Below, one piece after another: positions 1 to 41,315 of a stretch of DNA of 48,806 nt. Made by a program: the position numbers and the translations under genes. Below the pieces are notes generated by a model. That model was not told the DNA's origin. It was given only the letters and a program-made list of their open reading frames with translations, and searched no databases. The stretch comes from a virus, in IMG/VR virus record IMGVR_UViG_3300030103_001630, positions 1 through 48,806 of that record. One strand, given 5' to 3'. The number at the start of each line of letters is the position of its first letter. Positions within the stretch are counted from its first letter, which is position 1.

Positions 1-32
1 AAGTTGTTAATGTCTTCTAAAATATCATTCAT
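1..32 (-). CDS. 5' end of a small minus-strand gene, complete at 48563-48739
   Basis: The minus strand carries an AGGAG-type ribosome site (around 40-44) and an ATG at 32-30, then runs off the left edge of the window. The same bases at the right end continue into a 58-codon gene, so this is a duplicate produced by the terminal repeat and not a second gene. Confidence 0.8.
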   Translation of the reverse strand, partial: MNDILEDINN

Positions 33-62
33 TTATTTACTCCTGTTGTTGTTTATAAACTC

Positions 63-90
63 ATAGTACAGTAAATAATATTATATGCAA
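63..90 (-). promoter_or_regulatory. Minus-strand promoter (left copy)
   Basis: Read on the minus strand, TTGCAT (90-85) is followed after 16 bases by TACTAT (68-63) and then by the AGGAG and ATG of the small gene. It is the same site as 48770-48797 because of the terminal repeat. It would drive the small gene and the DUF3846-like gene behind it. Confidence 0.55.
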
Positions 91-117
91 GTTTTTTTGT
101 ACAAAAAGTAAAAGATA

Positions 118-144
118 TTTGAAATAAAATAAATTTAGTATAAA
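118..144 (+). promoter_or_regulatory. Possible promoter of the replication operon
   Basis: TATAAA at 139-144 lies nine bases before the ATG at 154, and no Shine-Dalgarno sequence precedes that ATG. The best -35 match, TTTGAA at 118-123, is weak and the spacer is only 15 bases. If real, the mRNA leader would be only about three bases, resembling the better leaderless promoters at 2512 and 46207. Confidence 0.35.
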
Positions 145-153
145 GTCAAATTT

Positions 154-786
154 ATGAGTTTTAAATGTATAGCAAATTGTATTGAGGTAAATGATATAAA
201 ATCCACTACAAAACTCATATTAATTATGTTAGCAAATTATGCTGATGAAAATAATCAAACATTTCCAAGTAAAAAACATTTAGCAAAAATTTGTAATTGT
301 GACGACAGAACTGTTACCAGATGCCTTTTAGAATTAGAGCAAAAAAGGTACATAAAAAAAGAAACGAGATTTATTGATGGTAGACAAACATCAAACCTTT
401 ACACAATAAAAGTAAAAGACATAGGGGGTACAATTCTGTCACCCTCCCCCACTACAAATATGTCACCCCATTATACTATCAATAAAGATACTAAAGAGGT
501 TATAAATAAAAAAAGTAATGGGAGGAATATATATACAGAAGAATTTGAAGAGTTCTGGAAACTATACCCAGACTCCGACTATAAAACCAAAAAAGATAAG
601 ACCTTTATAGAGTGGAAAAAATATCCAGATAAACAAGAATTAAAAAAGTTTCTTAATAATTACATTCAAAGAAAGGGGGGGAAATTTATACATAATCCAT
701 ACAATTGGTTTAAAGATAAAGTTTATTTAAACTTTAAATCTGATATATTAGAAACACAAAAAACAAAAAACTCACTAGCTGGGTAA
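154..786 (+). CDS. Phage replication initiator-like protein with winged-helix N-terminus
   Basis: This 210-residue protein looks like a phage replication initiation protein. Residues about 15-95 form a helix-turn-helix of the HTH_36 type found in phage O-like initiators: a helix rich in I/L/M, then PSKKHLAKICNCDDRTVTR as the recognition region and a basic beta wing. A low-complexity linker (100-125) leads to a C-terminal FEEFWKLYP...W segment that is common in phage initiators and helicase loaders. It lies nine bases upstream of the primase-helicase gene, which supports origin binding or helicase loading. No Shine-Dalgarno precedes the ATG, so translation may be leaderless. The exact role is inferred from fold and neighbour, not from catalytic residues. 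Confidence 0.75.
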   Translation: MSFKCIANCIEVNDIKSTTKLILIMLANYADENNQTFPSKKHLAKICNCDDRTVTRCLLELEQKRYIKKETRFIDGRQTSNLYTIKVKDIGGTILSPSPTTNMSPHYTINKDTKEVINKKSNGRNIYTEEFEEFWKLYPDSDYKTKKDKTFIEWKKYPDKQELKKFLNNYIQRKGGKFIHNPYNWFKDKVYLNFKSDILETQKTKNSLAG

Positions 787-795
787 GGAGTAGTA

Positions 796-2508
796 ATGGA
801 AAGACAACTAAACGAACAAGGAATTTATCTAACTTCCTACAGTATTGGAACATATAAAACATTTTGTCCTAAATGCAGAAACAGTAGAAAGTCACAAAAC
901 CGACACGACACACCATTATCAGTTACAATTGAAAATGACAAAGCATTATTTAATTGTCATAATTGTGACAATACTGGCATAGCAAGTGACAAACAAACTT
1001 ATCAAACTGTACCTAAGTCAAATCCAGATAAATTAAATTCTTGGTTTGCAAAAAGAGGAATTAGCAAAAAGACAACAGACGATTTAGGAATCTATGAATG
1101 GAACGAGAATATTTGTTTTCCATATATTCAAGACGGAGAAACAAAAAATGTAAAATATAGAACTTATGATAAAAGGTTTAGACAAAAACCAAATGCTCAA
1201 AGAACTCTATATAATATTGACAATGTAAAAAAATATTGGGAAGCAACTGGAAACAAAAATATTATAATTTGCGAAGGTGAGATGGATGTTATTGCATTCT
1301 ATGAAGCTGGAGTTATAAATGCCGTATCACTTCCAGATGGTGCGCCTAAATCTGCAAAGTTTGATTTAAAAGATTTAAGATTTAGTGCATTAAAAAATTG
1401 TTCTTTTCTTAATGAGGTTGATAAAGTCTATATTGCAACAGACCAAGACGAAGCTGGTAAGGCATTACATCTGGAATTAGTGCATAGATTTGGTAAAGAC
1501 AGATGCTTACGAGTTCAATTTCCAGACCAGCAAGGAGACATTCCAACTAAAGATGCAAATGAATGTTTAATGAAACTTGGAAGAAATACTCTAATACAAT
1601 GTTTAAAAGATGCTATTCCATACCCTATAGATGGGATACACACAGTCAAGAATTACCAACAAGAAGTTTTTGATATCTATGAAGGTAAAATACAAAGACC
1701 CCTCTCTACAGGCTTTAAAATCCTTGATACGATATATAAAATTCAAGCTGGTACATTTCACTTAGTTACTGGTGTACCCAATCACGGAAAGTCAAATTTT
1801 ATAGACCAACTAGCAGTCAATATGTTAAGAGAACACGGATGGAAGTTTTGTATATTTTCTCCAGAGCATTCAACACCTCAACATATCAGAAGGATAGTAG
1901 AAAAGATTGTAAAGAAACCATTTGATGATGGGGTGTCGCAAAGAATGAGTGTTGATGAACTTAACAGAGGTTTAAATGTTTTAAATAACAATTTCTATTT
2001 TATGGAAAACAAAAATGACATTCCCACGATTGATTGGATACTTGATAAAGCAAAGCAATCAGTATTGAAGTTTGGTGTAAAAGGGATTATAATTGACCCC
2101 TATAATGAGATAAACTCAACTAGAGAAGGGAATAAAAGAGAAGATGAACATATTAGAGATATTATCAGCAAAGCTAAAAAGTTTTGTAGAACACACGAAG
2201 TCACTATGTGGATGGTTGCCCACCCAAGTAAAATGCCTAGAGCAGAAGATGGTTCAATCCAAGTGCCGACCTTGTATGATGTTAGTGGTTCTGCTCATTG
2301 GAATAATATGTGTGATGTTGGTCTGGTAGTTGCAAGAAATTTTGACACACAACAAACCAGAGTAATTACAAGAAAAGTTAGAGAGCAAGGAGTATATGGA
2401 AACATAGGAGAATGTTTTTTTAATTATGATTTATCTGAAAGAGTATATAAGGAAGTTTTAGAATCAAAAAAAACAGAAGATAATCAACAAAAATGGTACA
2501 ATGATTAA
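796..2508 (+). CDS. T7 gp4-like bifunctional primase-helicase
   Basis: The 570-residue protein has the order expected of a fused DNA primase and replicative helicase. A four-cysteine zinc ribbon (C24, C27, C54, C57) comes first. A TOPRIM domain follows, with the acidic motif CEGEMD at about 159-164 and TDQDEAG at about 215-221. The DnaB/RecA-type helicase has a Walker A GVPNHGKS at 326-333 and a hydrophobic Walker B strand ending in D near 430. It should unwind the fork and lay primers for a polymerase supplied by the host, since no phage polymerase is seen. The start is supported by AAGGAG six bases upstream. It follows the initiator gene closely, probably in one operon. Confidence 0.93.
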   Translation: MERQLNEQGIYLTSYSIGTYKTFCPKCRNSRKSQNRHDTPLSVTIENDKALFNCHNCDNTGIASDKQTYQTVPKSNPDKLNSWFAKRGISKKTTDDLGIYEWNENICFPYIQDGETKNVKYRTYDKRFRQKPNAQRTLYNIDNVKKYWEATGNKNIIICEGEMDVIAFYEAGVINAVSLPDGAPKSAKFDLKDLRFSALKNCSFLNEVDKVYIATDQDEAGKALHLELVHRFGKDRCLRVQFPDQQGDIPTKDANECLMKLGRNTLIQCLKDAIPYPIDGIHTVKNYQQEVFDIYEGKIQRPLSTGFKILDTIYKIQAGTFHLVTGVPNHGKSNFIDQLAVNMLREHGWKFCIFSPEHSTPQHIRRIVEKIVKKPFDDGVSQRMSVDELNRGLNVLNNNFYFMENKNDIPTIDWILDKAKQSVLKFGVKGIIIDPYNEINSTREGNKREDEHIRDIISKAKKFCRTHEVTMWMVAHPSKMPRAEDGSIQVPTLYDVSGSAHWNNMCDVGLVVARNFDTQQTRVITRKVREQGVYGNIGECFFNYDLSERVYKEVLESKKTEDNQQKWYND

Positions 2509-2511
2509 AAG

Positions 2512-2540
2512 TTGCTATTTATACTTTGTGTAGCTATAAT
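2512..2540 (+). promoter_or_regulatory. Promoter of the ParB/PP-loop cassette; mRNA predicted leaderless
   Basis: TTGCTA at 2512-2517, a 17-base spacer and a perfect TATAAT at 2535-2540 form a good sigma70-type promoter. Exactly six bases separate the -10 box from the ATG at 2547, so the normal start site is the A of that ATG. No Shine-Dalgarno is present. This promoter makes the cassette a separate unit from the replication genes. Confidence 0.7.
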
Positions 2541-2546
2541 ATTTTT

Positions 2547-3137
2547 ATGTTTATAGAAGAAATAGAAACAGAAAAACTTAAACCATATACAAATAATCCA
2601 CGAATTATACCAGAAGTTGCTATAACAAATGTAGCAAATAGTATTAAAAAATTTGGATGGCAACAACCCATAGTTATAGATGAAGAAAATAATATTATTG
2701 TTGGTCATACTAGATACTTGGCATCCAAAAAACTTTTGTTAAAAAAAGTTCCAGTAAAAAAAATTAATGGTCTCTCACCAGATGATATAAATGCTTATAG
2801 ATTGTTGGATAATAAATTAAATGAATTTACTTCTTGGGAGACTAATATTTTAGACTTTGAATTAGAACAAATTAAATCTAAGGAATTAGAAAAATTGTTA
2901 TCTGTATTTAAAGAAGAAGAATTAGAAATAAAAAATCTTAATACTGATTTTCAAGAAATTGAAAATAACGAGGAAAAAGAAAAGTTTTTAATGGACGATA
3001 ATTTTGTTAATCTAAATTTTACTATGACTCAAAGTGAAAAACAAATATGCACAACAAAATTAAAAAAAATTATGGAAGAAAAAAATATTGATACAATGTC
3101 TAATGCTTTAGTTAATATTTTAAAGAACGAAAGATGA
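2547..3137 (+). CDS. ParB/sulfiredoxin-fold protein (first ParB-like gene)
   Basis: The 196-residue protein begins with a ParB-like N-terminal domain (about 1-95): KPYTNNPRI, then SIKKFGWQQPIVID, then the active-site-like VGHTRYLA at 52-59 and INAYRLLDNKLNE. This form is usual in phage ParB domains fused to DNA methyltransferases, but here no methyltransferase follows. The rest is a charged helix and a short C-terminal TMTQSEKQ...ALVNIL segment seen in phage ParB-like proteins. The start is set by the promoter just upstream; an in-frame start at 2526 would lie between the promoter boxes. It overlaps the cupin gene by ATGA. A role as nuclease, NTP-dependent DNA binder or partner of the PP-loop enzyme is possible; none is proven. 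Confidence 0.8.
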   Translation: MFIEEIETEKLKPYTNNPRIIPEVAITNVANSIKKFGWQQPIVIDEENNIIVGHTRYLASKKLLLKKVPVKKINGLSPDDINAYRLLDNKLNEFTSWETNILDFELEQIKSKELEKLLSVFKEEELEIKNLNTDFQEIENNEEKEKFLMDDNFVNLNFTMTQSEKQICTTKLKKIMEEKNIDTMSNALVNILKNER

Positions 3138-3814
3138 TTATAAATTACGAACCAAAACATCAAAGCACGATAGATGCAATCAAAACTATGTATCCCACAA
3201 AATCTGTGTGGATTACACAAAATAGTGTATTAGGACAAGAGAGTTCATCAATTTTTGGATATGTCTTAGACGGAGATGTCCAGATAAAGGCCAACAATCA
3301 ATTATGGCATCTTAAAAGTGGCAATTACTTTTCTTTTACTGACAAAGTTGAATTTTTTCTTAAAGATAAAAGTTCAGTATGGACAGTAGAAAAAAAAGGA
3401 TACAGATGTATGCCAATGGTAGGACAAGTTGAAAATAATGGGAGATTATCATATATAGATGGTTGTTCAGATTCTGTTTTGGTTGCAATGCCAAGAATGG
3501 GTGACCCAGTTCTGAATTATCTACATTTTCCGACAGGAATATATCAAACACAACACACACATCCTTCTATAAGAATGGGACTGGTTATTAGAGGTTCTGG
3601 CCAAGCATTTCAAGAAAAAAGTAACTATTCAGATGGGTGGGTTAAAGAATTAAAAAAAGGATGTATGTTTATGTTGCAAGAGCAAGAACTTCATTCATTT
3701 AGAACCACATCAGATATTATGGATATTATTGCATTTCACCCAGATTCAGATACAGGGCCAACAGACGAAAATCATCCAATGATTAACAGAACATACATAG
3801 ACAATGGAAAATAA
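3134..3814 (+). CDS. Double-cupin protein in the ParB/PP-loop cassette
   Basis: The 226-residue protein shows two beta-barrel cupin repeats. The first (about 38-75) lacks histidine ligands: VLDGDVQIKANN...LKSGNYFSF. The second (about 130-200) has HTHPSIRMGLVIRGSG and a later ELHSFRT, giving the HxH pair and the third histidine of a metal site, but the usual glutamate of the first cupin motif is missing. Its end carries FHPDSDTGPTDENHP, a further His/Asp-rich stretch. It overlaps both neighbours (ATGA upstream, 11 bases downstream), so it is translated with the ParB and DUF3440 genes. A metal-dependent oxygenase or a small-molecule sensor are the two obvious options; the substrate is unknown. 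Confidence 0.7.
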   Translation: MIINYEPKHQSTIDAIKTMYPTKSVWITQNSVLGQESSSIFGYVLDGDVQIKANNQLWHLKSGNYFSFTDKVEFFLKDKSSVWTVEKKGYRCMPMVGQVENNGRLSYIDGCSDSVLVAMPRMGDPVLNYLHFPTGIYQTQHTHPSIRMGLVIRGSGQAFQEKSNYSDGWVKELKKGCMFMLQEQELHSFRTTSDIMDIIAFHPDSDTGPTDENHPMINRTYIDNGK

Positions 3815-5036
3815 AAATTATAAATCTTTCAGAGGATATGGAACAAAAGATATTATTAATAAAAATGTTTATGAATTAGCTATTGAAAGATTAAATATAG
3901 CATTTGATAAATTAGACCAACTTGTAGTAATGTTTAGTGGTGGCAAAGATTCAACTGCGTGTCTTAATTTAACACTTGAAGTCATACGACAAAGAAAAGA
4001 AAAAAACCTAGAGGTTCATTTTATTGATGAAGAAGCAATACCATACGAAACAATAAATTATGTTAGAAGAATTAAAAACATCCCAGAAGTAGATTTGAAT
4101 TGGTGGTGTTTGCCTATAAAACATAGAAATGGTTGTTCATCAAAAAAACCTTTTTGGTATCCTTGGGCGCCAGAGGATAAAGAAAAATGGGTAAGGGATA
4201 TTCCAGAAGAAGCAATAACCGAAATTGAAGGTTATGAAAACAATAAACCAGAAAAAAGACTAATGATTCCAGATATGAATGGATATTTTTTTAATCCAAA
4301 AAAATATGGAAATGTTGGAATTGTTATGGGAATAAGAGCAGATGAATCGCTTGTAAGAACCAGAGCAATTCTAAACAGCAGAACAAGAGAAGATACACAT
4401 ATTTTAAAAAATAGTGATGGTACAAGTTTTGGGAATACATATAAAATATACCCAATTTATGATTGGTCAACAGAAGATGTTTGGACAGCACCGAAAAAAT
4501 TTAATTGGGATTATAATACTACATATGATGTTTATGATAAAATGGGTGTTAGTCCGAATGCACAAAGATGTGCGCCACCATTTGGCGAAGAACCTATGCG
4601 TGGTCTTTACCAATTTAAAGAAGGTTTCCCAGATATTTGGGAAAAAATGCAATATAGAGTAGAAGGAGCGGCAACTGCGGCAAGGTATGCTAGAAGTAAA
4701 TTGTATGCTTTTGGTAATTTACCAGACAAACCAAAAGAAATGAAGTGGGAGGATTTTTTAAAATATTATATAAAACAACATAAAAAAGAAAATCAAAAAG
4801 AAATAGCAAAAAGAGTTGATTTGTTTATTAGACAACATAAAAATAAAACAGATGAACCTTTAATGATTAAATCACCTCATCCCATAAGTGGAATTTCTTG
4901 GAATTTTTTACTAAAAATAGCAATGAGAGGCGATAGTAAACAAAGAAAAACACCACCTTTTAGTGGAGTTAAAGAAGTTCAAATTAAACAAAGGAGAAAA
5001 TATAATGAAGAAAGGTTTGGAGTTTCAACCAATTAA
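3804..5036 (+). CDS. DUF3440 PP-loop ATPase of the PAPS reductase superfamily (IbrA-like)
   Basis: The 410-residue protein has the PP-loop SGGKDS at 45-50, which binds ATP pyrophosphate, in the PAPS reductase/adenine-hydrolase fold. Family features follow: FIDEEA, the aromatic WWCLPIKHRNGCS segment, GIRADES, a YPIYDWSTEDVW motif and AQRCAPPFGEEP. These match the DUF3440 family, represented by E. coli IbrA, which is typically encoded beside a ParB-like partner (IbrB). It lacks the ECGLH catalytic cysteine motif of true PAPS reductases, so adenylylation or thiolation of another substrate is more likely than sulfate reduction. Its last 32 bases overlap the start of the second ParB-like gene. The biochemical target is unknown. 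Confidence 0.85.
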   Translation: MENKNYKSFRGYGTKDIINKNVYELAIERLNIAFDKLDQLVVMFSGGKDSTACLNLTLEVIRQRKEKNLEVHFIDEEAIPYETINYVRRIKNIPEVDLNWWCLPIKHRNGCSSKKPFWYPWAPEDKEKWVRDIPEEAITEIEGYENNKPEKRLMIPDMNGYFFNPKKYGNVGIVMGIRADESLVRTRAILNSRTREDTHILKNSDGTSFGNTYKIYPIYDWSTEDVWTAPKKFNWDYNTTYDVYDKMGVSPNAQRCAPPFGEEPMRGLYQFKEGFPDIWEKMQYRVEGAATAARYARSKLYAFGNLPDKPKEMKWEDFLKYYIKQHKKENQKEIAKRVDLFIRQHKNKTDEPLMIKSPHPISGISWNFLLKIAMRGDSKQRKTPPFSGVKEVQIKQRRKYNEERFGVSTN

Positions 5037-5523
5037 TAATGTTCAATGGGTAGATAGAAATAAATTAAAAGCCAATAATTATAACCCAAATAAAGTAGCA
5101 CCAATAGAATTAAAATTATTAGTTAATTCAATTTTAACTTCTGGATGGACACAGCCTATCGTAATTAGGTCTGACTATGAAATTGTTGACGGATATCATA
5201 GATGGCTTGTAGCAGATAAAAAAGAGATAAAAGAAAAATTAGATGGAAAAGTGCCTGTTGTTTTTATATCTGACGAAATGAGTCAAGCAGAACAAATATC
5301 AGCCACAATCACTCATAACAGAGCAAGGGGAACACATTATATTATGCGAATGGCATCAATTGTCCGTGAACTAAAAGATGTTCAAAAAAAAGATGACCTA
5401 TGGATTCAAAATAAATTAGGTATGGAACAAGAAGAAATAAATAGACTTTATGATAATTCAACTTCTAAAGAAACAAAAAGCAAAGAAGAATTTAATAATG
5501 GTTGGGTGCCAAAATTTGAATAA
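5005..5523 (+). CDS. ParB-like IbrB-type protein (second ParB-like gene)
   Basis: The 172-residue protein contains a ParB/sulfiredoxin-like domain: SILTSGWTQPIVIR, then VDGYHRWLVA with DGYHR at 62-66, then VPVVFI. A helical part with TITHNRARGTHY, typical of the partner of DUF3440 proteins (IbrB), follows. The start at 5005 is chosen because AAGGAG lies eight bases upstream; an in-frame ATG at 4963 has no such site. The gene lies between two PP-loop ATPase genes, overlapping one and touching the other (TAATG), so it may serve both. The DGYHR motif resembles the DGQHR motif of DndB from DNA phosphorothioation systems; that is a resemblance of motif, not proof of function. Confidence 0.82.
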   Translation: MKKGLEFQPINNVQWVDRNKLKANNYNPNKVAPIELKLLVNSILTSGWTQPIVIRSDYEIVDGYHRWLVADKKEIKEKLDGKVPVVFISDEMSQAEQISATITHNRARGTHYIMRMASIVRELKDVQKKDDLWIQNKLGMEQEEINRLYDNSTSKETKSKEEFNNGWVPKFE

Positions 5524-6251
5524 TGAATTTAGATATTTTAATTAATGACTCATTAAATGTTTTAGAAAAATTGCTTTCTATGACTGAAAAACCTCTCATA
5601 GCATACTCTGGTGGCAAAGATGCTATTGTTGTCAGTCATATAGCTTCACAAATGGGTTTAAAAGATGCAGTTTGTGAAACATCTTTTTATTTTGAAAAAC
5701 AACTATGTTCAGTAAAAAAGTTGTCAAATTTACTTAATCTAAATACAACATATTATGATACACAAGGTTGGGAATGGTTAAAAAAAAATAAAGATATAGT
5801 GTTTACATCTGATACAAAAAAAAGGTCTTGGACATTTTCAGTAAGACAACAAAAGACAGTTAAAAATCACGCAAAGAAATTTGGTTACGATTCTATAATA
5901 TTTGGCAGAAGAAAAGACGAAAACTGTGTAAAAGATACGATTTATAAAACTAGAGATTACATATCTTGTCATCCATTAGCAAATTGGAAAAAAGAAAACA
6001 TATGGGAATATTTTGCACGACATAAAATTCCAATACCATATATTTATTCAACAAAATTTGGATTATTGGAAGGCAATGCGCCCTTTTATACATTAAATAA
6101 AAAATATGTAGGTACTATAGAGCAATGCTGGGAAATTGTTTCTTCAATAGACCCAAGATATAATTCTAGTTGTCTTGAAGAACATTATATCAATAGAGAA
6201 GAGTCAAATGATGTTAAACCAGATTGGCAAACAAAACTTGCAGAGGATTAA
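5523..6251 (+). CDS. PP-loop / PAPS-reductase-like ATPase (second)
   Basis: The 242-residue protein carries the PP-loop SGGKDA at 29-34, FTSDTKKRSW, and FGRRKDEN in the position where the superfamily binds its nucleotide substrate, followed by HPLANWKKENIWEYF. The overall size matches PAPS reductases, but the C-terminal ECGLH cysteine motif is absent; a different cysteine (NSSCLEEH) sits near the end. It is not a duplicate of the DUF3440 protein upstream: size and flanking motifs differ. It is the last gene before a hairpin terminator. A nucleotide or nucleic-acid sulfur-transfer role is inferred from fold and context; auxiliary sulfur metabolism is an alternative. Confidence 0.85.
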   Translation: MNLDILINDSLNVLEKLLSMTEKPLIAYSGGKDAIVVSHIASQMGLKDAVCETSFYFEKQLCSVKKLSNLLNLNTTYYDTQGWEWLKKNKDIVFTSDTKKRSWTFSVRQQKTVKNHAKKFGYDSIIFGRRKDENCVKDTIYKTRDYISCHPLANWKKENIWEYFARHKIPIPYIYSTKFGLLEGNAPFYTLNKKYVGTIEQCWEIVSSIDPRYNSSCLEEHYINREESNDVKPDWQTKLAED

Positions 6252-6288
6252 GGGTCACTACGGAGACAAACAAACTTTAGTGACCCTT
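6250..6288. terminator. Perfect 11-bp hairpin between convergent genes
   Basis: AAGGGTCACTA at 6250-6260 pairs perfectly with TAGTGACCCTT at 6278-6288 around a 17-base loop. It lies between the end of the + strand PP-loop cassette and the end of the - strand amidoligase operon, where a two-way terminator is expected. No clear U tract follows on either side, so it may act with Rho or protect mRNA 3' ends. Confidence 0.65.
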
Positions 6289-6301
6289 ATACAAGGTTGC
6301 T

Positions 6302-6721
6302 CTAAAACATATTATAAGCACTCTCTTTACTAGCATCCGTTCTTGCATCATACAAAAACTTTTGGTCTAGCGAGAAGTCCTCATAACCCCTAGCGATTGT
6401 ATTGAAATAATCACGACTAGGTGGAGCAATTCTATTTGTGTTCATTGTATAAGTGAGAGCAACTTTACCATCAATATCAAAATACAACTTTCTATACAGA
6501 TGAGGAAAACCTTCATAGATATCTAATGCTTTTTCACAGGCATCTGAAATCTCCCAAAGACCCATAGGACAACTTGCACCTTTGTATTCCTCAATGTCTG
6601 CAACACCTCTGAATACTAATCTAAAATCTGGAACAAGAATTTTACCTAATGGTTTAGCAAGAGGACAACGAAATTTCATTTGTCCTCTGTGTAAGTTACT
6701 ACCATAAGCTAAATATAACAT
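6302..6721 (-). CDS. Gamma-glutamylcyclotransferase-like (AIG2-type) enzyme
   Basis: The 139-residue protein has the hallmarks of the GGCT/AIG2 family: an N-terminal LYLAYGSNL substrate-binding loop, PLAKPLG...DFRLVFRG, the GLWEIS strand, and the catalytic glutamate in DIYEGFPHLYRK (about residue 69). These enzymes cyclise gamma-glutamyl amines to 5-oxoproline or release gamma-linked peptides. The gene starts directly at the end of the amidoligase gene (the stop and start regions touch at 6721), so the two are co-translated. The pairing suggests making and trimming amide-linked glutamyl groups on a small molecule, cell-wall peptide or protein; the substrate cannot be read from the sequence. 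Confidence 0.88.
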   Translation of the reverse strand: MLYLAYGSNLHRGQMKFRCPLAKPLGKILVPDFRLVFRGVADIEEYKGASCPMGLWEISDACEKALDIYEGFPHLYRKLYFDIDGKVALTYTMNTNRIAPPSRDYFNTIARGYEDFSLDQKFLYDARTDASKESAYNMF

Positions 6722-7731
6722 TATGCTACCTCCGTGCTGAAGTTATCACTACGACCCATATAGTAGTAAGAAATTTTCTCATCAACTCCACCAAAAAGAT
6801 TATCCTCATCACCAATAAGATTTCTAATCCACTCTTCAAACCTAATGTTATTTATAGATTTTTGAGGAGTTCTTGGGTTGTCATATAAATCTCTTAAAGA
6901 TTGAGTTTCAAATTTTTTGATAATAGTATTAGTAGTAGTATCAACTAATGACCACTTTCCTTTGAACTGTAAATCATAATTGTAAGCAAGCAATCTATTT
7001 CTAATTGCAGAAAAATTTGCAGACTTAGCAACTGTTACATTTCCATCTTGTGCTCTTGCAGAAGTTTTACCAATAAGATTTTTTGACTCTACAATAAAAT
7101 CAGCAAGAAAAGAAACCCAATTTCTAATCTTGAAAGCATTAGCAGTTCCAGAATGATGTCTGAACTCAATAGTTCCCGTTCTACCATAAATACTTGTTAA
7201 GTTTACTTTCTGTTGTCTTCTGCTCTGTCTTGATAAAGTTCTAGCACAATCAGAATCAAAGTTCATATTGATAAGAGTAGAGCAATAATGATTAGTATCT
7301 GCTCTTCTACTTCTTGGCATAAATCCATCAATCTGATTCTCAAATCTTTGGTAACGAGTAACTATGCTTTTGATTACTGCACCATCTTCTTTGATACCAT
7401 TCCAAGAGAAGTGAATGTGTAGTCCACAGTTTCTGTCAATGTTTGCATTTGCAGATTTAAGTACAGAACAAATCTTGTCAATCTGACCTAAGTCATTAAG
7501 TGTAAGGATTGGAGATACAAGTTCACCACCAATCATATTTCTTGGATTACTGTAAGAACCACGACTTACTGTACCATCCCAACAAATCTTCCAAGTATCA
7601 AAATTTGTATTGTTATGGTATCCCTCAATGACTGATGCAATACCAATGTCTTGAAGAAGTTTTTGTACCTTCTTAGCTGAAGCATCTTTGAATTCAATTT
7701 CAACTCCAAATGTTAGTTCGTTTTTTTCCAT
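6721..7731 (-). CDS. Amidoligase family enzyme (COOH-NH2 ligase)
   Basis: The 336-residue protein matches the glutamine-synthetase-like amidoligase family: TFGVEIEF near the N-terminus, WKICWDGTV, GGELVSPIL, the GLHIHFSW motif and TIEFRHHSGT. The Glu and His residues in these motifs correspond to metal and ATP binding in the fold. Such ligases join carboxyl and amino groups using ATP. AGGAG lies upstream of the ATG, and a good promoter is 40-70 bases further upstream. It forms an operon with the cyclotransferase-like gene. The family occurs in phages and has been proposed to modify host wall peptides or proteins; here that is inference. Confidence 0.88.
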   Translation of the reverse strand: MEKNELTFGVEIEFKDASAKKVQKLLQDIGIASVIEGYHNNTNFDTWKICWDGTVSRGSYSNPRNMIGGELVSPILTLNDLGQIDKICSVLKSANANIDRNCGLHIHFSWNGIKEDGAVIKSIVTRYQRFENQIDGFMPRSRRADTNHYCSTLINMNFDSDCARTLSRQSRRQQKVNLTSIYGRTGTIEFRHHSGTANAFKIRNWVSFLADFIVESKNLIGKTSARAQDGNVTVAKSANFSAIRNRLLAYNYDLQFKGKWSLVDTTTNTIIKKFETQSLRDLYDNPRTPQKSINNIRFEEWIRNLIGDEDNLFGGVDEKISYYYMGRSDNFSTEVA

Positions 7732-7768
7732 ATCGTCTCCTAGTAAAAGTTTGTTTGTTTATACTAAC

Positions 7769-7797
7769 ATAGTACGAAATCCGTTGATGTATGTCAA
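7769..7797 (-). promoter_or_regulatory. Minus-strand promoter of the amidoligase operon, with shared operator-like box
   Basis: On the minus strand TTGACA (7797-7792), a 17-base spacer and TACTAT (7774-7769) precede the amidoligase start. The -35 box lies inside the inverted repeat GTTGA-N6-TCAAC, and the upstream side carries AAATAAATAT. Almost the same block is found at 40258 and 16164, pointing to common regulation. Inverted copies of a TCAATGACTTAC word (7839-7850) lie further upstream. Confidence 0.65.
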
Positions 7798-7892
7798 CAC
7801 TATTTAAAAATAAATATCAATTTTTTTTTCTAACAATATCAATGACTTACGAGGATTGGATAATTTTTTTTGTTGATGGGTATAAATAATTG

Positions 7893-7922
7893 TTGATTTT
7901 TAGAAACTTTTTGTGTTATAAC
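7893..7922 (+). promoter_or_regulatory. Candidate plus-strand promoter, divergent from the amidoligase promoter
   Basis: TTGATT at 7893-7898 and TATAAC at 7917-7922 are separated by 18 bases and lie 27 bases before the ATG at 7949, leaving room for the GGAG ribosome site. It would start the late region that includes the terminase genes. Confidence 0.5.
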
Positions 7923-7948
7923 TGTATTAACAAATGACGGAGTATAAG

Positions 7949-9040
7949 ATGAAAACAAAATATGAAAATTTTTTACAACAGTTGATTCACGGATTAGATG
8001 ACCCAAAAAAAACATATATGACTCATCATAGAATCGGATTCAACAAAGATATATTCAAGTTGAAGGGTAAATTATTGTCAGCTACAAAAATTTTTTTAAG
8101 TGACGATTTTGTCCATAAAGATTTAGCAAAATGGAATAATGAGGATAGCAAAAGATTGGATAAAGAGAATCCCAAAATTACAAATTTTGAACAAGTGTTA
8201 GATATGCACCGAAAAATTTTTGCAGAATCTTTGCCCGTTTATGACAATCTTTTACTTATATACCCACATAGATGGAGTTATGGGGAGGAGACTTTTGAAT
8301 GTATGGCTGGTGCTTGGGTTCGTAAAGTAGATGAGAAAAATTTTTACAGGGTTTCAACATTTGATGATGCTTGTAAAATTAGTGGATATCATCAAAGACT
8401 AAATCTCAGTCTTGTAGATTTCATAATTAATTATGATGACAATTATTTATATGGTGATGAAAGTAGTAGTGAAAAAGAAATTTTTAATTCTTATGATGAC
8501 ATAGCCAATATGAAAAAGTTTCCAAACTGCAAAAAGATTCCCCAATGGTTAAATATGGAAACAAAGCGATTCAACGAAGTAGTTCAATCATCATATCTTA
8601 ATTTTGTACTTACTGTAGGTTCAGAGTTTTGTGATGTCAAAAAATTCCCAAAAGAACTTCCTTCACATTCAGCCTTTCAAGATTGGGTAATTAAATATCT
8701 TCCACAGGTTGATACAGTTGGTTCAACAGTTAGCATTTTTCGTAACCTTGCAATTCTTAAATTTATAAATGCAAAAGGTTCAGAAACGATTGCATTCAAA
8801 TCGCATCTTCCAATAAAGAAAAGAAGTAATGTAATAAAAGGTTTTGAATACAAAATGTTAGAAGTACGAAAAGCCAATACTATCACAACTAGATATGGAG
8901 ATTCAATTAACAAGAATAGATTACATCAAGTTAGAGGTCATATGAGACATTATCAAAGTGGTAAAAGAACTTGGATTAAATCACACGAGAGAGGTGATGA
9001 AAAGATGGGAGTAATAATCAAAGATTATAACTTCAAATAA
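7949..9040 (+). CDS. Conserved phage protein of unknown function with C-terminal RGH/RGD-like motif
   Basis: The protein has 363 residues from the ATG at 7949, chosen because CGGAG ends six bases before it; an in-frame ATG at 7934 has no ribosome site. No signal peptide or membrane segment is visible. Most of the chain is mixed alpha/beta with many aromatic residues. The most distinctive part is the last 35 residues: LHQVRGHMRHY, KRTWIKSH and ERGDEKMG. I recall similar histidine/arginine-rich endings in other phage proteins without a known function. The gene is first in the block that leads to the terminase, so a packaging or virion role is possible, but so is an early role. Confidence 0.6.
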   Translation: MKTKYENFLQQLIHGLDDPKKTYMTHHRIGFNKDIFKLKGKLLSATKIFLSDDFVHKDLAKWNNEDSKRLDKENPKITNFEQVLDMHRKIFAESLPVYDNLLLIYPHRWSYGEETFECMAGAWVRKVDEKNFYRVSTFDDACKISGYHQRLNLSLVDFIINYDDNYLYGDESSSEKEIFNSYDDIANMKKFPNCKKIPQWLNMETKRFNEVVQSSYLNFVLTVGSEFCDVKKFPKELPSHSAFQDWVIKYLPQVDTVGSTVSIFRNLAILKFINAKGSETIAFKSHLPIKKRSNVIKGFEYKMLEVRKANTITTRYGDSINKNRLHQVRGHMRHYQSGKRTWIKSHERGDEKMGVIIKDYNFK

Positions 9041-9107
9041 AATTTGCTTAATGACAACTTTATGATTAAAATATGATTAAATTTTTTACATAGTATAAGG
9101 AGAATAA

Positions 9108-9296
9108 ATGTTTAGTTTTATTACAAATCTATTTAAATCCAAACCAAAAAGACCAATGACTATAAGTCGTTTACATATTATGACTAAGAAAGAACTAGAA
9201 ACATTTGGTCGCAAGAACGGAATAGAACTTGATAGAAGGTTTCATAAAAGCGATTTAGTAGACCAGTTATTCAAGCATCTACAGAAAAAAAAGTAA
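9108..9296 (+). CDS. Small basic protein with SAP/HeH-like helical motif
   Basis: The 62-residue protein starts after a clear AAGGAG. Its second half (ISRLHIMTKKELETFGRKNG, then DRRFHKSDLVDQLF) has the helix-extended loop-helix pattern of SAP or Rho-N-like DNA/RNA-binding motifs: a Leu/Lys helix, a glycine turn and a helix ending in a pair of leucines. The N-terminus is a short hydrophobic/basic stretch. It lies just before the terminase genes. Nucleic-acid binding is an inference from this pattern. Confidence 0.6.
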   Translation: MFSFITNLFKSKPKRPMTISRLHIMTKKELETFGRKNGIELDRRFHKSDLVDQLFKHLQKKK

Positions 9297-9307
9297 GGTG
9301 TCACAGT

Positions 9308-9420
9308 ATTATGACTATAGCAAACACTTGCTGAGAGTCCTTATATTGCTTTAATATTTGACAAAATGTCTAAAATAATTGAAATTATGACTATTCGTGG
9401 TATTTTATTATTATGACTAG
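9308..9420. repeat. Three copies of ATTATGACTA before and at the small terminase start
   Basis: ATTATGACTA occurs at 9308-9317, 9384-9393 and 9410-9419; the first two extend by one more shared T, and the last contains the ATG of the putative small terminase gene. The segment 9297-9412 has no gene. Repeated words beside a small terminase gene can be the recognition site for packaging. They could also be chance in AT-rich DNA. Confidence 0.45.
9379..9406 (+). promoter_or_regulatory. Candidate terminase promoter; mRNA predicted leaderless
   Basis: TTGAAA at 9379-9384, a 16-base spacer and TATTTT at 9401-9406 are followed by exactly six bases and then the ATG at 9413. No Shine-Dalgarno precedes that ATG. 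The -10 box is imperfect, so support is moderate, but the geometry repeats that of 2512 and 46207. Confidence 0.45.
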
Positions 9421-9961
9421 ACACAATGCAGATACAATAGAACTTATAAGACAAGAGTATGTTCAAGGAATTGTAGATGCCAATGGTGTTCGGTCATATC
9501 CAACAATAGATGAGTTATCAAAAAAACACTCAATACCCTCAATCACTTTGTATAGGAAATCTCAAGGAGAAGAATGGAAGAAACAAAAGACTGACTTTCA
9601 AGAAACTTTAAGGATTGAAATAGACAAAGAGAAAAGAAAAAAGATGGCAAAAGATTCTATTGAATTTGATGAGAATAATTTACGATTAGCAAAAGCCTTA
9701 CAAAATGAGATTGTTGCATTAATTACATTGTCAAACAAGAAAAGAACTGAAGGAGAGAAAAGACCATTTTTTTCTGCAAGTTCATTAAACAGTTTGGGTA
9801 TGGCATTAATGACCTGTCAAAAGGTAGGGCGATTAGCATTAGGAGAATCAACTGACAACACAAACATCACAACAACAGAGTCCACAGTTAACGAGGCTTT
9901 CCAACTTATTGACGAAATATTCAGAGGAAAGTCAAAAGAAAGCGACTCTCAATTACATTAA
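9413..9961 (+). CDS. Putative terminase small subunit
   Basis: The 182-residue protein sits directly in front of, and overlaps, the large terminase gene, the usual place of the small subunit. Residues about 10-60 look like a helix-turn-helix (YPTIDELSKKHSIPSITLYRKSQGEEW), the DNA-recognition part of such subunits. A long basic/acidic helix follows (about 60-95), then a C-terminal region that may bind the large subunit. The small subunit marks the packaging start on concatemeric DNA. The first ATG has no ribosome site but lies six bases after a -10-like box. The assignment rests on position and HTH pattern. Confidence 0.72.
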   Translation: MTRHNADTIELIRQEYVQGIVDANGVRSYPTIDELSKKHSIPSITLYRKSQGEEWKKQKTDFQETLRIEIDKEKRKKMAKDSIEFDENNLRLAKALQNEIVALITLSNKKRTEGEKRPFFSASSLNSLGMALMTCQKVGRLALGESTDNTNITTTESTVNEAFQLIDEIFRGKSKESDSQLH

Positions 9962-11174
9962 ATACTGGAAACTTGCTAGAGACAAACAAGTAACGCCTTT
10001 AGGAGATTGGAATGTATGGTTAATACTTGCTGGTAGAGGTTTTGGTAAAACTTGGACTGGAGCATATGACATAGTAAATTATGCAATGACACATCCAAAT
10101 ACAATAAGTGCAGTTCTTGCTCCTACATTTGGTGACTTGAGAAGAGTTTGTTTTGAAGGTGTAAGTGGCATAAATCAGTTGATTCCTCAAGAATGTTATT
10201 TTAACTCAAAGGCAAGTGGATATAACAGAAGTACATCAGAGATAAAGTTATGGAATGGGTCAAAGATTGTAGGATTCTCTGCAAGTGAACCAGACAGATT
10301 GCGAGGAAGCCAGTATCATAGGGCGTGGTGTGACGAGTTGGCGGCGTGGAGATATCCAGAGGCATATGACCAACTTCAATTTGGTTTGCGATTAGGAAAG
10401 AATCCACAAGTTGTAATAACTACAACTCCCAGACCAACACCAATAATAAAAGAACTGATGAAAAGAGCAGAGGATGATGTGTATGTAACTCAAGGGTCAA
10501 CCTTTGAAAACAAACAAAATCTTGCTCAGTCAGCTTTAAAACAGTTTGTAGATAGGTATGAGGGAACAAGGTTAGGTAGACAAGAACTATACGCAGAAAT
10601 ACTTGATGACTTTGAAGGTGCTTTATGGAATTACACTATGCTGGAGGATTGTAGAGTTACAAAAGAACACTTACCAGAAATGACTAAAATCATTGTCAGC
10701 ATTGACCCAGCCGTAACGGCCAACGCAAATTCTGATGAAACAGGCATTATTGTTACAGCGTTAGGTGAAGATGAAAGATACTATGTACTGGAAGACAAAA
10801 CTGGTAAATATTCCCCAGATGAATGGGGAAGGGTTGCCATAGAACTGTTTTATCGCTATAATGCCAATATGATTGTTGCCGAGGTAAACAATGGTGGCGA
10901 TTTGGTGGAAAGATTATTACGGAGTATTGAACGAAATATTCCTTATAAATCAGTCCACGCAACAAGAGGAAAGATGGTGAGAGCAGAGCCAATTTCTGCT
11001 TTATACGAACAAGGAAAGGTATATCACTTGGGAACTTTTCCAAAATTGGAGGAACAAATGTGTTCTTTTACAGGAGATAACAGAGGAGCATCTCCAGATA
11101 GATTAGATGCTTTAGTTTGGGGTTTAACTGAACTAAGTATCTCAAACGGAAAACCAATTTGGAGAATAAGCTAA
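9909..11174 (+). CDS. Terminase large subunit
   Basis: The 421-residue protein has the ATPase Walker A AGRGFGKT at 41-48, a WCDELAAW Walker B-type strand, the TTPRPT coupling motif and a C-terminal RNase H-like nuclease starting with SIDPAV near residue 265 and containing a later LDALVWG. It cuts and pumps DNA into the prohead. Only a TTG start (9909) gives a full N-terminus, and this overlaps the small subunit gene by 53 bases; there is no ATG before the Walker A motif. The stop overlaps the portal ATG (TAATG), so the two are coupled. Confidence 0.92.
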   Translation: MTKYSEESQKKATLNYIKYWKLARDKQVTPLGDWNVWLILAGRGFGKTWTGAYDIVNYAMTHPNTISAVLAPTFGDLRRVCFEGVSGINQLIPQECYFNSKASGYNRSTSEIKLWNGSKIVGFSASEPDRLRGSQYHRAWCDELAAWRYPEAYDQLQFGLRLGKNPQVVITTTPRPTPIIKELMKRAEDDVYVTQGSTFENKQNLAQSALKQFVDRYEGTRLGRQELYAEILDDFEGALWNYTMLEDCRVTKEHLPEMTKIIVSIDPAVTANANSDETGIIVTALGEDERYYVLEDKTGKYSPDEWGRVAIELFYRYNANMIVAEVNNGGDLVERLLRSIERNIPYKSVHATRGKMVRAEPISALYEQGKVYHLGTFPKLEEQMCSFTGDNRGASPDRLDALVWGLTELSISNGKPIWRIS

Positions 11175-13510
11175 TGGGTATATTTGATAACATAAAAAAA
11201 ATCTTTAAGAAAGAAATCACAACAAAACAAGCACCTATAACAATGATGAATAATGTTGGTTATTCAGCACCACGAAAAGATAGTTACCAACAGTATGCTC
11301 AAGAAGGATATCAACAAAACGCAGTTGTTTATAAATGTATCAATGAGATTGCCAATGGTGCGTCTGCTGTTGACCTCTGTGTATATGATGATGACATTAA
11401 GTTGGATGCTCATCCACTTCTAAACTTACTGGATAGACCAAATCCATTACAAGCTGGTAACGAATATTTTAAATCCTTGTATTCATTTTTGCTTATAGCT
11501 GGAAACAGTTATGCTTTGAGAGTGGGTGCAGAGAACGGAGAACCACGAGAACTGTATTTACTTAGACCAGATAGGGTGAAAGTCAAACCAAGTAATAATA
11601 TGATTCCTAGAGGGTATATTTACGAGGTAGGTGGTAAGGTAATAAAAGAATATGATGTAGACCCACAGACAGGACAAAGTGAAGTCAAACATTTTAAGTT
11701 ATGGAATCCAATAGATGATTATTACGGATTAAGTCCCATTCATTCAGCTAGTACAGATATTGACCAGCACAATTTTGCCGCCAAACACAATGTAAGTCTT
11801 TTGATGAATGGCGCAAGACCAAGTGGTGCGATTGTGTTCAAACCAAAAGATGAATCTGGACAATCAGTTCAATTGACTGAATACCAAAGGGCGCAACTTT
11901 TACAAGATATGCAAGTAAGGTTTCAAGGAACAGATAATAGTGGAAGACCAATGTTGTTGGAAGGTGACTTTGATTGGAAAGAAATGGGATTAAGTCCGAA
12001 GGATATGGACTTCTTACAATTAAAAAATATGAGTGCAAGAGACATAGCAATGTGTTTTGGTGTACCTAGTCAACTTATTGGGATACCAGATGCACAGACT
12101 TATTCAAACATACAAGAAGCAAGACTAGCATTATATGAAGAAACAATCATTCCATTGATAAGAAGAGTTGAATCTGACTTGAATGAATATTTAGCACCAT
12201 TATATGGTGAGTCAATAAATCTTAGATACGATATTGATTCTATACCAGCAATGGCAGAACGAAGAAAACGAATCTATGAAAATGTTACTGTTGCAGTAAG
12301 AGAAGGAATCATATCAAGAAATGAAGCAAGAGAACGATTAGGACTAGAACCAATCTCTGGTGGAGATGATGTTTACATTGCCGCCAATCTTTTCCCATTA
12401 GGTGAACCACAAGATTCACCATTAGAAGACGAAAAGCCTAATCCAGATAAGGAAGCCGAAGATGCCTATGGATACAAAACAGAGGTTAGAAGAGATGTTT
12501 TCACAACAAGAGAAGAAGCTGAAGAAAGAGCAAATGAAATAGGATGTCAAGGTACTCACTTCCACGACTCAGATGGTAAAAGAGTTTATATGCCTTGTGC
12601 ATCTCATAGTGATTATAGAGAACTTACTGGGAGAGATTTAAAGTATCATACTGCTGACCCAGAGTATTTAGTAAATCAAGAACTTAGAAGAGATGTGTTT
12701 ACAAGTCAAGAAGAAGCAGAGGATAGAGCAGAGGAGATAGGATGTGAGGGATTCCATACCCACAATGAAGAAGGTGATATTGTTTATATGCCGTGTAGAA
12801 CTCACGAAGAATACACAAGACTGACAGGAGAAGAATTAAAACAGATAGACCTTAAACCGACTGAAGGTATGGCAACTGAAGCAAAAAGAGCATTGGAATG
12901 GAGAAAAGAATTTAAGAGAGGTGGTACTGCTGTTGGTGTTGCTAGAGCAAATCAACTTGTAAACAGAGAAAATCTTTCTGAAAGAACTGTTCTTAGAATG
13001 TATAGTTTCTTTTCCAGACACGAGGTAGACAAACAAGCAGAGGGATTCTCTCAAGGAGAAAAGGGATATCCAAGTGCTGGAAGGATAGCTTGGGGTCTAT
13101 GGGGTGGAGATGCTGGATTTACTTGGAGTACAAAGAAAAGAGAACAAATTAACAGAGAGATAGAAAAGTTAGCTTGTGAAGATAACGAAGAAAAAGCCGT
13201 AAGTGGTAAAATAAAAAAGGCATTAGAAAAAAAGGTCAAAGACCACAACGATAAGCACGGAGACAAAAAAGGTAAACGAGTAACTGTTGGAATGCTTGGT
13301 AAAGTCTTTGTTAGAGGTGTAGGTGCATACCGAACAAACCCACAATCAGTACGCCCAAATGTGACAGGGCCAGACCAATGGGGTCTTGCACGAGTTAATG
13401 CCTTTCTGTTTGCAGTTAGAAGTGGTAGATTTAGAAGTGGACAGTTTGATAGAGATTTACTTCCAAAAGACCATCCCTTATATAGAGCAAAAGAAAAAGA
13501 CAAAAAGTAA
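11174..13510 (+). CDS. Portal protein with C-terminal Cys/His repeats and a DUF5824-like domain
   Basis: The protein has 778 residues from the ATG at 11174 (GGAG upstream), far longer than the roughly 400 of an HK97-type portal. Residues 1 to about 410 are the portal: VYKCINEIA, LLDRPNPLQ, GNSYALR, SARDIAMCFGVPSQLIG and NEARERLGLEP. Two near-identical repeats follow (about 437-490 and 503-556), each beginning RRDVFT and carrying a C-x3-H-x-H-x10-C-x2-H pattern, perhaps zinc binding. A helical region then contains RHEVDKQAEGF and AWGLWGGDAG. The end (about 700-770) resembles DUF5824: VFVRGVGAYRTNP, LARVNAFLFAVRSG, DLLPKDHPL. The extra parts may bind DNA or other head proteins. Confidence 0.88.
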   Translation: MGIFDNIKKIFKKEITTKQAPITMMNNVGYSAPRKDSYQQYAQEGYQQNAVVYKCINEIANGASAVDLCVYDDDIKLDAHPLLNLLDRPNPLQAGNEYFKSLYSFLLIAGNSYALRVGAENGEPRELYLLRPDRVKVKPSNNMIPRGYIYEVGGKVIKEYDVDPQTGQSEVKHFKLWNPIDDYYGLSPIHSASTDIDQHNFAAKHNVSLLMNGARPSGAIVFKPKDESGQSVQLTEYQRAQLLQDMQVRFQGTDNSGRPMLLEGDFDWKEMGLSPKDMDFLQLKNMSARDIAMCFGVPSQLIGIPDAQTYSNIQEARLALYEETIIPLIRRVESDLNEYLAPLYGESINLRYDIDSIPAMAERRKRIYENVTVAVREGIISRNEARERLGLEPISGGDDVYIAANLFPLGEPQDSPLEDEKPNPDKEAEDAYGYKTEVRRDVFTTREEAEERANEIGCQGTHFHDSDGKRVYMPCASHSDYRELTGRDLKYHTADPEYLVNQELRRDVFTSQEEAEDRAEEIGCEGFHTHNEEGDIVYMPCRTHEEYTRLTGEELKQIDLKPTEGMATEAKRALEWRKEFKRGGTAVGVARANQLVNRENLSERTVLRMYSFFSRHEVDKQAEGFSQGEKGYPSAGRIAWGLWGGDAGFTWSTKKREQINREIEKLACEDNEEKAVSGKIKKALEKKVKDHNDKHGDKKGKRVTVGMLGKVFVRGVGAYRTNPQSVRPNVTGPDQWGLARVNAFLFAVRSGRFRSGQFDRDLLPKDHPLYRAKEKDKK

Positions 13511-40352: not shown

Positions 40353-40595
40353 TTATTTTTCAAATTTACCAAGATATTTACCATAAGGGTCGTAAATTTT
40401 TCCGTCTTTGGTTATAGTCCATTGAAGTTTACCTTTAGGACTATAGAATTTACCTTTGTCTATTTGACCTTGATACCTACCATAGTTATCAAAAAATTTT
40501 TGTTTATCATATTTCTCTTTAGCATACACATTTAAAATCTCTTGAGACTTTGGTAACGATAAAACAAATAGTGTAAATAATAATAATGTTCTCAT
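40353..40595 (-). CDS. Small secreted/periplasmic protein with signal peptide
   Basis: The protein has 80 residues from the ATG at 40595, which overlaps the oxygenase stop (ATGA). MRTLLLFTLFVLSLP is a clear hydrophobic signal/anchor; the mature part has lysine-rich strand repeats (KFFDNYGRYQGQIDKGKFY, GKLQWTITKDGKIYDPYGKY) resembling short beta-strand repeats. A longer in-frame reading lies inside the oxygenase gene and is rejected. A surface or envelope-modifying role is possible; superinfection exclusion is one guess. Confidence 0.65.
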   Translation of the reverse strand: MRTLLLFTLFVLSLPKSQEILNVYAKEKYDKQKFFDNYGRYQGQIDKGKFYSPKGKLQWTITKDGKIYDPYGKYLGKFEK

Positions 40596-41206
40596 CTGAA
40601 TGGTTCTCCACTTATCCAAGCTACTAATGCCCACCGAACACCCTGTCTTACAGGCAAAACTTTGTGCGATAAAAAACTTGGAAATGCAATACACTTACCC
40701 AAAGGTAGTTTAAGTTTATATAATTCATCAGAAAAAAATAATAATTCTCCTCCGACAAAATCTTCATTTAGACATATAGATATAGAAATTTTTCTTGTTG
40801 ATGCTTCCCCTTGACCCAAATCAATGTGCCAATTATACCCTTTGCTCGGACTTGTATATCTAAGTAATTGTGGTCTTTCTAATAATCCAACTAGATTATA
40901 GTCTAAATAACTCATAGCAGTCTCAGCAGTAGATATAATTATTTCATCTATCCATTGTTGTTTCTCATCTATAATCCAACAATCAACTTCTCTTTTTTTA
41001 CTGAGTTTATAACTCCCATCACTTTGTATTCTACCCTTTACAGATTTATTAGATGGTCGTGTTCTTTCATTAATAATTTTTCTACAAGTGTATGCAGACA
41101 AATCTCCACAATCCACAACTCCGTGTGATGTAGTAACTTGTTTCGGATTTATTGCTAATGCCATTTTGTCAGACTCCCATAATGTGTCGGATAGTATCTT
41201 CTCCAT
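40592..41206 (-). CDS. 2-oxoglutarate/Fe(II)-dependent oxygenase (prolyl-4-hydroxylase/PiuC-like)
   Basis: The protein has 204 residues from ATG 41206, eight codons after a possible TTG start. It has the facial triad of the family: His127 and Asp129 in NWHIDLG and His181 in FLSHKVLPV, followed by Arg191 in VRWALVAW that binds 2-oxoglutarate. Strands such as ISISICLNEDFVGGELLFF are typical of the double-stranded beta helix. Phages carry such enzymes for unknown hydroxylation of proteins, nucleic acids or small molecules. It is embedded among tiny minus-strand genes, so its product may be an accessory activity against the host. Confidence 0.88.
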   Translation of the reverse strand: MEKILSDTLWESDKMALAINPKQVTTSHGVVDCGDLSAYTCRKIINERTRPSNKSVKGRIQSDGSYKLSKKREVDCWIIDEKQQWIDEIIISTAETAMSYLDYNLVGLLERPQLLRYTSPSKGYNWHIDLGQGEASTRKISISICLNEDFVGGELLFFSDELYKLKLPLGKCIAFPSFLSHKVLPVRQGVRWALVAWISGEPFR

Positions 41207-41315
41207 AATCAAACCCTTTAAGACCAACAACTACTAAAAATAAAGTTCCATATACAATTATTACAATACAAAACAATATATACAATGCCTTAAAGAAAAT
41301 TATGATATTCTTCAT
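41169..41315 (-). CDS. Tiny single-helix membrane protein overlapping the oxygenase gene
   Basis: This frame encodes 48 residues beginning MKNIIIFFKALYILFCIVII, then VYGTLFLVVVGL, then a short charged end. Its start lies two bases after the stop of the gene upstream, and it overlaps the oxygenase start by 38 bases, so it is packed like its neighbours. No good ribosome site precedes it. The long hydrophobic helix is unusual for a chance frame, but AT-rich DNA does give such runs, so support is moderate. Confidence 0.5.
   Translation of the reverse strand: MKNIIIFFKALYILFCIVIIVYGTLFLVVVGLKGFDYGEDTIRHIMGV

Follow-up and report, generated by a model that had tools for sequence, protein, structure and literature searches.

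The locus analysed here is a five-gene cassette in a 48.8-kb record of an uncultured marine virus of bacteria (IMG/VR record IMGVR_UViG_3300030103_001630, positions 1 to 48,806; hereafter, the window), and its closest described relatives are the IbrA/IbrB genes of phages and prophages and the homologous pair ybdNM of Escherichia coli: a gene for a DUF3440 PP-loop protein (PHROG 2302) followed by one for a ParB-domain protein (PHROG 2159), the same two in the same order as in the cassette. Several phage systems offer further comparison. In Synechococcus phage S-B43, the asparagine-synthetase homologue CmoY couples glycine to 5-carboxymethylcytosine in DNA, and the CmoA/CmoX/CmoY operons include a cofactor-supply gene and commonly have ParBc genes beside CmoX (PMC12783734). 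In the Dpd system, the ParB-like protein DpdB works beside the base-modifying enzyme DpdA. To our knowledge, the phage DNA hypermodifications described so far use host metabolites or phage-made cofactors. We consider it fairly probable, on comparative grounds, that the cassette is a horizontally exchanged, ATP-dependent module for hypermodifying phage DNA; the gene at one variable position would act as the supplier of a small molecule.

The cassette genes and their families

All five genes lie on the + strand, between positions 2547 and 6251 of the window; family names are based on profile matches.

2547-3137, + strand: ParB1, a protein with a ParB/Srx N-terminal domain, the probable DNA-recognition subunit (Pfam ParB_N, 7e-8; PHROG 620, 2e-38)
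3134-3814, + strand: double cupin (bicupin), occupant of the variable "supply" slot (structure model, motifs and same-operon homologues in IMG/VR)
3804-5036, + strand: DUF3440 (IbrA-like) PP-loop ATP pyrophosphatase (PAPS_reduct, 2e-12; DUF3440, 1.6e-9; PHROG 2302, 5.8e-90)
5005-5523, + strand: ParB2, IbrB-like (ParB_N, 6e-8; PHROG 2159, 2.4e-62)
5523-6251, + strand: PPL, a second, CysD-like PP-loop ATP pyrophosphatase, found in only part of the family (PAPS_reduct, 4e-13)

A preliminary description of this DNA had named the same genes in this order, and the gene calls, the Pfam matches and the cupin model bear it out. The genes are also linked, as it stated: consecutive overlaps measure 4 (ParB1/cupin), 11 (cupin/DUF3440), 32 (DUF3440/ParB2) and 1 bases (ParB2/PPL). 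The start of ParB2 was set at the ATG at 5005 and not at the mechanically called GTG at 4963; from that same start, the protein is 52% identical to the ParB2 of a related locus, L004. With its 32-base overlap, ParB2 adjoins DUF3440 as its partner does in IbrA/IbrB. In the close pairs measured, dN/dS is 0.05-0.10 for PPL, DUF3440 and the cupin.

ParB1 also matches the N-terminal part of PHROG 498 (DNA methyltransferase; 5.5e-32) and, in a PADLOC profile scan covering the cassette proteins, the N-terminal part of MTase_II (1.2e-16). The cupin scores below the cut-off of Pfam Cupin_2, yet its structure model, with a predicted local distance difference test score (pLDDT) of 92, has the two barrels that the preliminary description expected; AerE and oxalate decarboxylase, both small-molecule bicupins, are among the solved folds closest to it, a likeness at superfamily level only. 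The motifs GRLxYIDGC, HxHP and HPxSD are invariant across 24 cupin homologues, and those from IMG/VR are located inside the same kind of operon.

The domain names of the two PP-loop proteins, PAPS reductase and sulfate adenylyltransferase-like, together with the nutrient transport proteins (a symporter and TctC) found in related operons, would fit auxiliary metabolic genes that help the infected cell take up nutrients or simply assimilate sulfur. The proteins themselves argue otherwise. As had been noticed earlier, neither window protein contains the ECGLH motif, and the family alignments hold no invariant cysteine in either PP-loop family; the PP-loop catalytic residues are conserved in both. 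Scores with NCBIfam cysH are 19.6-22.8 against a cut-off of 165.1 bits, short of family level, and PPL matches CysD (2.8e-14; CysD 1zun_A in PDB, 1.6e-10) below the cut-off, at 53 of 195 bits. With no CysN among its genes, the cassette thus has neither the motif and family score of CysH nor the score and GTPase partner of CysD/CysN. Its coupling to two ParB-domain proteins is, moreover, invariable, and it occupies a DNA-modification site (below), all of which makes a purely metabolic role very improbable.

Modification of DNA with sulfur, whether phosphorothioate-like or of another kind akin to Dnd or Ssp, is to us just as improbable. DndC, SspD and BrxP share the PAPS-reductase-like PP-loop superfamily with the cassette proteins, and DUF3440 gives weak, partial PADLOC matches to DndC (6e-12) and SspD (0.0056). 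The NCBIfam DndC match, however, is a single 64-residue stretch scoring 37 of 290 bits, and the cassette proteins differ from all three in scoring far under the family cut-offs, in having no conserved cysteines and in lacking partner genes, the cassette encoding nothing that resembles DndA or DndD. Both sulfur assimilation and phosphorothioation were rejected on this evidence of motifs, scores and partner genes. The preliminary description had proposed sulfur or adenylyl transfer, and only its second half stands. Adenylyl chemistry by the PP-loop enzymes is likely, judging by their relatives, because PPL is closest to CysD and the DUF3440 model (pLDDT 86) to the folds of the FAD synthase PAPS domain, CysH and CysD, an answer at superfamily level only; the DUF3440 protein itself scores above the Pfam gathering score. 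Sulfur transfer is unsupported: the cassette encodes neither CysN nor a cysteine desulfurase, its proteins have no catalytic cysteine, and their scores with Dnd, Ssp and CysH are far under the cut-offs.

The operon family and its variable slot

By its gene content, the window cassette belongs to a type of phage operon that is widespread and has several forms. The nearest relatives of PPL in IMG/VR (loci L002-L004, 52% identity) have ParB1, an additional gene, DUF3440, ParB2 and PPL in the same order, and the additional gene encodes a sodium:solute symporter (SSF, 1e-22) in contrast to the cupin of the window. The symporter form is found in L004, L005 and most relatives, whereas the window has the cupin form, with no SSF symporter in the slot; a gut phage record carries a symporter, PPL, ParB and a DUF3440-like gene. 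Scanning with the symporter and cupin, together with a neighbourhood survey by hidden Markov models, yielded more than 100 loci with these components, some of them in prophages of cultured Firmicutes; symporter-form prophages are present in the gut isolates Anaerotruncus colihominis DSM 17241 (L131), Acetatifactor muris DSM 23669 (L135) and Agathobaculum desmolans ATCC 43058 (L150). The gene set is more than a chance association, being found again in dozens of unrelated phages. The relatives are all known as sequence records, often fragmentary ones, and the counts are of loci and not of independent events. We studied the operon in IMG/VR and GTDB genomes because a tblastn search of INPHARED gave no cupin match and one PPL match; four further INPHARED symporter matches (L006-L009) are distant and lack the cassette, and they were treated as probable bacterial contamination and not used. 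A repeat PPL scan using an alignment found no new relatives.

After redundancy was removed at 80% DUF3440 identity, 73 operons with ParB1 and a slot gene remained. Their core consists of ParB1, DUF3440, ParB2 and, often, PPL. The slot holds a symporter in 49, a double cupin in 20, a TctC receptor in 2, a small cupin in 1 and a symporter plus a small cupin in 1 (L208), the only one of the 73 with more than one class of slot gene; symporter and double cupin occur together in none. The operons are thus unlike the two-gene IbrA/IbrB, adding ParB1, a slot gene and often PPL, and the extras accompany the pair in 73/73 operons with ParB1. Nine loci have just DUF3440 and ParB2, in the manner of IbrA/IbrB, and neither ParB1 nor a slot gene. 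Since loci found through the symporter or the cupin are biased towards having one, we also made a scan anchored on DUF3440. No locus whose ParB1-DUF3440 interval was complete had an empty slot, and the seven loci without symporter or cupin hold a TctC-type receptor with a signal peptide, read and profiled in 3 of the 7 (the others having the same gap); the profile matches of the TctC slot genes range from 3e-32 to 3e-38. The co-occurrence of the five genes, which the preliminary description had proposed to check, is therefore confirmed for the gene set, which recurs across loci, but not for the cupin, whose position is usually taken by a sodium:solute symporter and sometimes by a TctC receptor.

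On the DUF3440 tree, no fewer than four switches are needed to account for the symporter and cupin labels. The seven proteins sampled from phages with IbrA/IbrB only form one clade, starred, apart from those of the cassettes; deep placement is uncertain because long branches join at the base. Neither an account of the symporter/TctC/cupin slot nor a paper linking the symporter to DUF3440/ParB was found in the literature searched, outside which lie preprints and most subscription papers.

Residues S330 and T331 are more than 90% conserved among 47 of the symporters and presumably correspond to the sodium-site serine and threonine of the symporter family. The nearest solved structures, DUR3 and a choline transporter, do not fix the substrate. 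In bacterial chromosomes, members of the family stand near AsnB-type PP-loop genes, and in another type of phage one adjoins two such genes; the partnership of symporter and PP-loop enzyme thus recurs. That phage, with a contractile tail (a sheath gene is near), has a symporter-family gene with two AsnB-like PP-loop genes (motif SGGIDSS) directly after it (L070:6001-9507), with no ParB or DUF3440 within the stretch examined. At a bacterial locus (L118:1195-11286), a cupin homologue, nitroreductase-family and YcaO genes, a symporter and an AsnB-like gene are grouped, the symporter, AsnB-like gene and cupin homologue within ~10 kb; such a grouping may reveal a shared substrate.

Additional genes are present in some operons. 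In L248, a class II glutamine amidotransferase gene (5354-5953) lies between PPL and two DUF3440 genes; as a sign of amidation, it was set aside as a single case. In cupin-form operons, a 165-aa gene without a family match lies between DUF3440 and ParB2 (L029:7922-8419).

Block exchange and the proposed function

Phages with the window's TerL were collected irrespective of the cassette. One of them, L253, is near-identical to the window, at 95% identity over positions 1-2479 and 92-96% over most of the sequence after 6170, and differs wholly in between.

2480-6169, no strand: replaceable block, wholly different in L253 (blastn of window positions 1-12000 against L253)
6170-6251, + strand: right recombination junction inside PPL (DNA alignment; the last 27 PPL codons are homologous to the tail of L253 ParB1)

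In place of the window block, L253 has DUF3440-ParB2-ParB1, and the C-terminal end of its ParB1 reads ...CLKEHYVNREELNNFKPDWQTKLAEE. The 27-codon match between PPL and this protein is, as far as the alignment tells, the scar of the exchange. Another TerL relative, L259, has the same cassette minus PPL, and more distant ones carry different genes at the same site: ParB1 with Mom (L260; Pfam, 7e-44), a methyltransferase with ParB1 and a TET-associated glycosyltransferase (TAGT; L271), ParB1 with TAGT and a sugar-nucleotide epimerase (L274), a ParB_N-N6_N4_Mtase fusion (L284, profile match 7e-29, and, by sequence, L286), and ParB1, an AdoMet decarboxylase, a DNA-methylase-like gene, DUF3440, a methyltransferase and ParB2 (L267). 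The TAGT profile matches are 1e-45 (L271) and 2e-36. Because TerL relatives carry ParB with Mom, TAGT or a methyltransferase fusion there, the site is a DNA-modification island. The Mom and TAGT loci thus resemble the cassette in genome site, in adjoining a ParB1 relative and in belonging to phages with a related terminase, and are unlike it in their enzymes and presumably in their chemistry. Many of the unrelated relatives have the operon immediately 5' of terS/terL.

With ParB_N beside DNA-modifying genes at the same site in relatives, an arrangement that the preliminary description could not place now falls to a known kind of locus, the ParB-linked phage DNA-modification locus. Its suggestion that the cassette modifies nucleic acid, perhaps to protect the DNA of the phage, and includes IbrA/IbrB as a sub-part has good support in the site shared with Mom, TAGT and methyltransferase fusions. 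The ParB-like protein working beside a base-modifying enzyme is also the feature shared with Dpd, and unlike in Dpd, the cassette has no TGT or 7-deazaguanine gene. In Fusobacterium phage phiFN37 (L197), IbrA/IbrB lie a few kilobases from a ParB gene that adjoins a gene for a queuine tRNA-ribosyltransferase, which gives this one phage a second modification locus linked to ParB. Between ParB1 and DUF3440, the AdoMet decarboxylase of L267 is followed by a DPPW DNA-methylase-like gene (3238-4252), possibly an aminopropyl donor supply for DNA modification, and L265 has a glucosyltransferase-like gene and an unassigned 176-aa gene (3398-4487).

The site also bears on two readings in which DNA is not the substrate. 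The module could be regulatory, with DUF3440/ParB2 as IbrA/IbrB-like transcription co-activators, the other genes tuning them to a metabolite and no DNA being modified: annotations of Streptococcus phages describe IbrA/B as co-activating the expression of prophage genes, and the homologous E. coli pair ybdNM is repressed by CitR, with ybdM a predicted regulator (PMC9068703). Regulation would leave unexplained the conserved PP-loop catalytic residues, the symporter/TctC/cupin slot and the same-site replacement by Mom, TAGT and methyltransferases, and we regard it as unlikely. Slightly less unlikely is that the same PP-loop activation chemistry is aimed at RNA (tRNA) or protein. TilS, TtuA and NcsA are among the structure matches, several PP-loop relatives act on tRNA, and the cellular symporter relatives lie near AsnB-type genes, in L118 with YcaO and nitroreductase-family genes; on the other side, the ParB_N domains of the cassette are related to the N-termini of DNA methyltransferases, and it is DNA-modifying genes that occupy the site in relatives.

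Under hypermodification of DNA, ParB1 and ParB2 would recognise or position the DNA, and the slot gene would supply or prepare a small metabolite, by uptake from the medium in phages with the symporter or TctC and by binding or conversion in those with the cupin. The PP-loop enzymes would spend ATP to adenylate the metabolite or a base carbonyl, DUF3440/ParB2 would finish the transfer onto the base, and the product would be DNA that host nucleases fail to recognise. A supply role for the slot gene is favoured because two slot families consist of uptake proteins, because the AdoMet decarboxylase of L267 and the epimerase of L274 are donor-making genes beside a transferase, and because the symporter family is found near AsnB-type PP-loop genes in chromosomes, as in the L118 grouping, and next to them in another phage. 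By analogy, CmoY offers the best biochemical precedent, that of a PP-loop ligase with phage DNA as its target: like the cassette, CmoA/CmoX/CmoY is a phage operon combining a donor-supply gene, a DNA-acting enzyme, a PP-loop ligase and a frequent ParBc neighbour. The cassette differs in having PP-loop genes of the PAPS-reductase class and not AsnB, in lacking the Cx-SAM synthase CmoA and any methyltransferase, a C5-methyltransferase included, and in a donor that is apparently imported or cupin-processed.

The interchange of symporter, TctC receptor and cupin beside two ATP-pyrophosphatases and two ParB proteins suggests that there is a type of DNA modification with an uptake step of its own. 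More tentatively, and with doubt outweighing confidence, such phage operons may have a nutrient importer of their own, the slot protein bringing in or preparing an external molecule that the PP-loop enzymes attach to DNA bases, with the DNA chemistry set by the nutrient and the supply part exchanged like a cartridge. If true, what phage DNA is chemically would depend on which nutrient the infected cell takes up. The IbrA/IbrB (DUF3440/ParB) pair, common in phages, also gains a testable role.

Several points weigh against hypermodification. PPL is missing from roughly half of the operons; the core reaction must therefore be able to do without it, or else a host enzyme or DUF3440 takes its place. 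The modified base is postulated, the system being known here from sequence records alone, and that the symporter, the TctC receptor and the cupin share one compound is our assumption. IbrA/IbrB have been described as transcription co-activators, and ParB domains and PP-loop enzymes act on other targets too.

Flanking signals and neighbouring genes

Two signals lie at the edges of the cassette.

2512-2540, + strand: candidate sigma-70-like promoter, TTGCTA-17-TATAAT (10/12 consensus matches)
6249-6290, no strand: strong hairpin between convergent genes (fold z -4.3)

The preliminary description had credited the cassette with a clean promoter and a terminator of its own. The promoter is plausible by position, because L202, L204 and L205 have 10/12 matches similarly placed, 36-38 bases 5' of ParB1, but it falls short of proof, with 48 promoter-type sites in the 9-kb region against 46 expected from shuffles, that is, no enrichment. 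The terminator fares worse: the hairpin is without a T-run, the terminator scan made no call there, and L253, with a different block in place of the window cassette, has it too; it is therefore part of the phage backbone.

On its 5' side, the cassette is preceded by genes for a replication protein and a helicase-primase. On its 3' side follow, on the opposite strand, a gamma-glutamylcyclotransferase-like gene and an amidoligase, and then terS and terL. The former pair (6302-7731, - strand; the second gene matching Amidoligase_2) is conserved in L015, L201, L203, L204, L218 and L253, and it was rejected as a part of the system, being confined to the window's clade and belonging to the backbone. 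Elsewhere in the window, positions 7934-9040 encode a 368-aa protein with homologues in L253, L257 and, on the opposite strand, L263, and positions 40592-41230 (- strand) encode a 2OG-Fe(II) oxygenase (PHROG 61, 1.5e-23).

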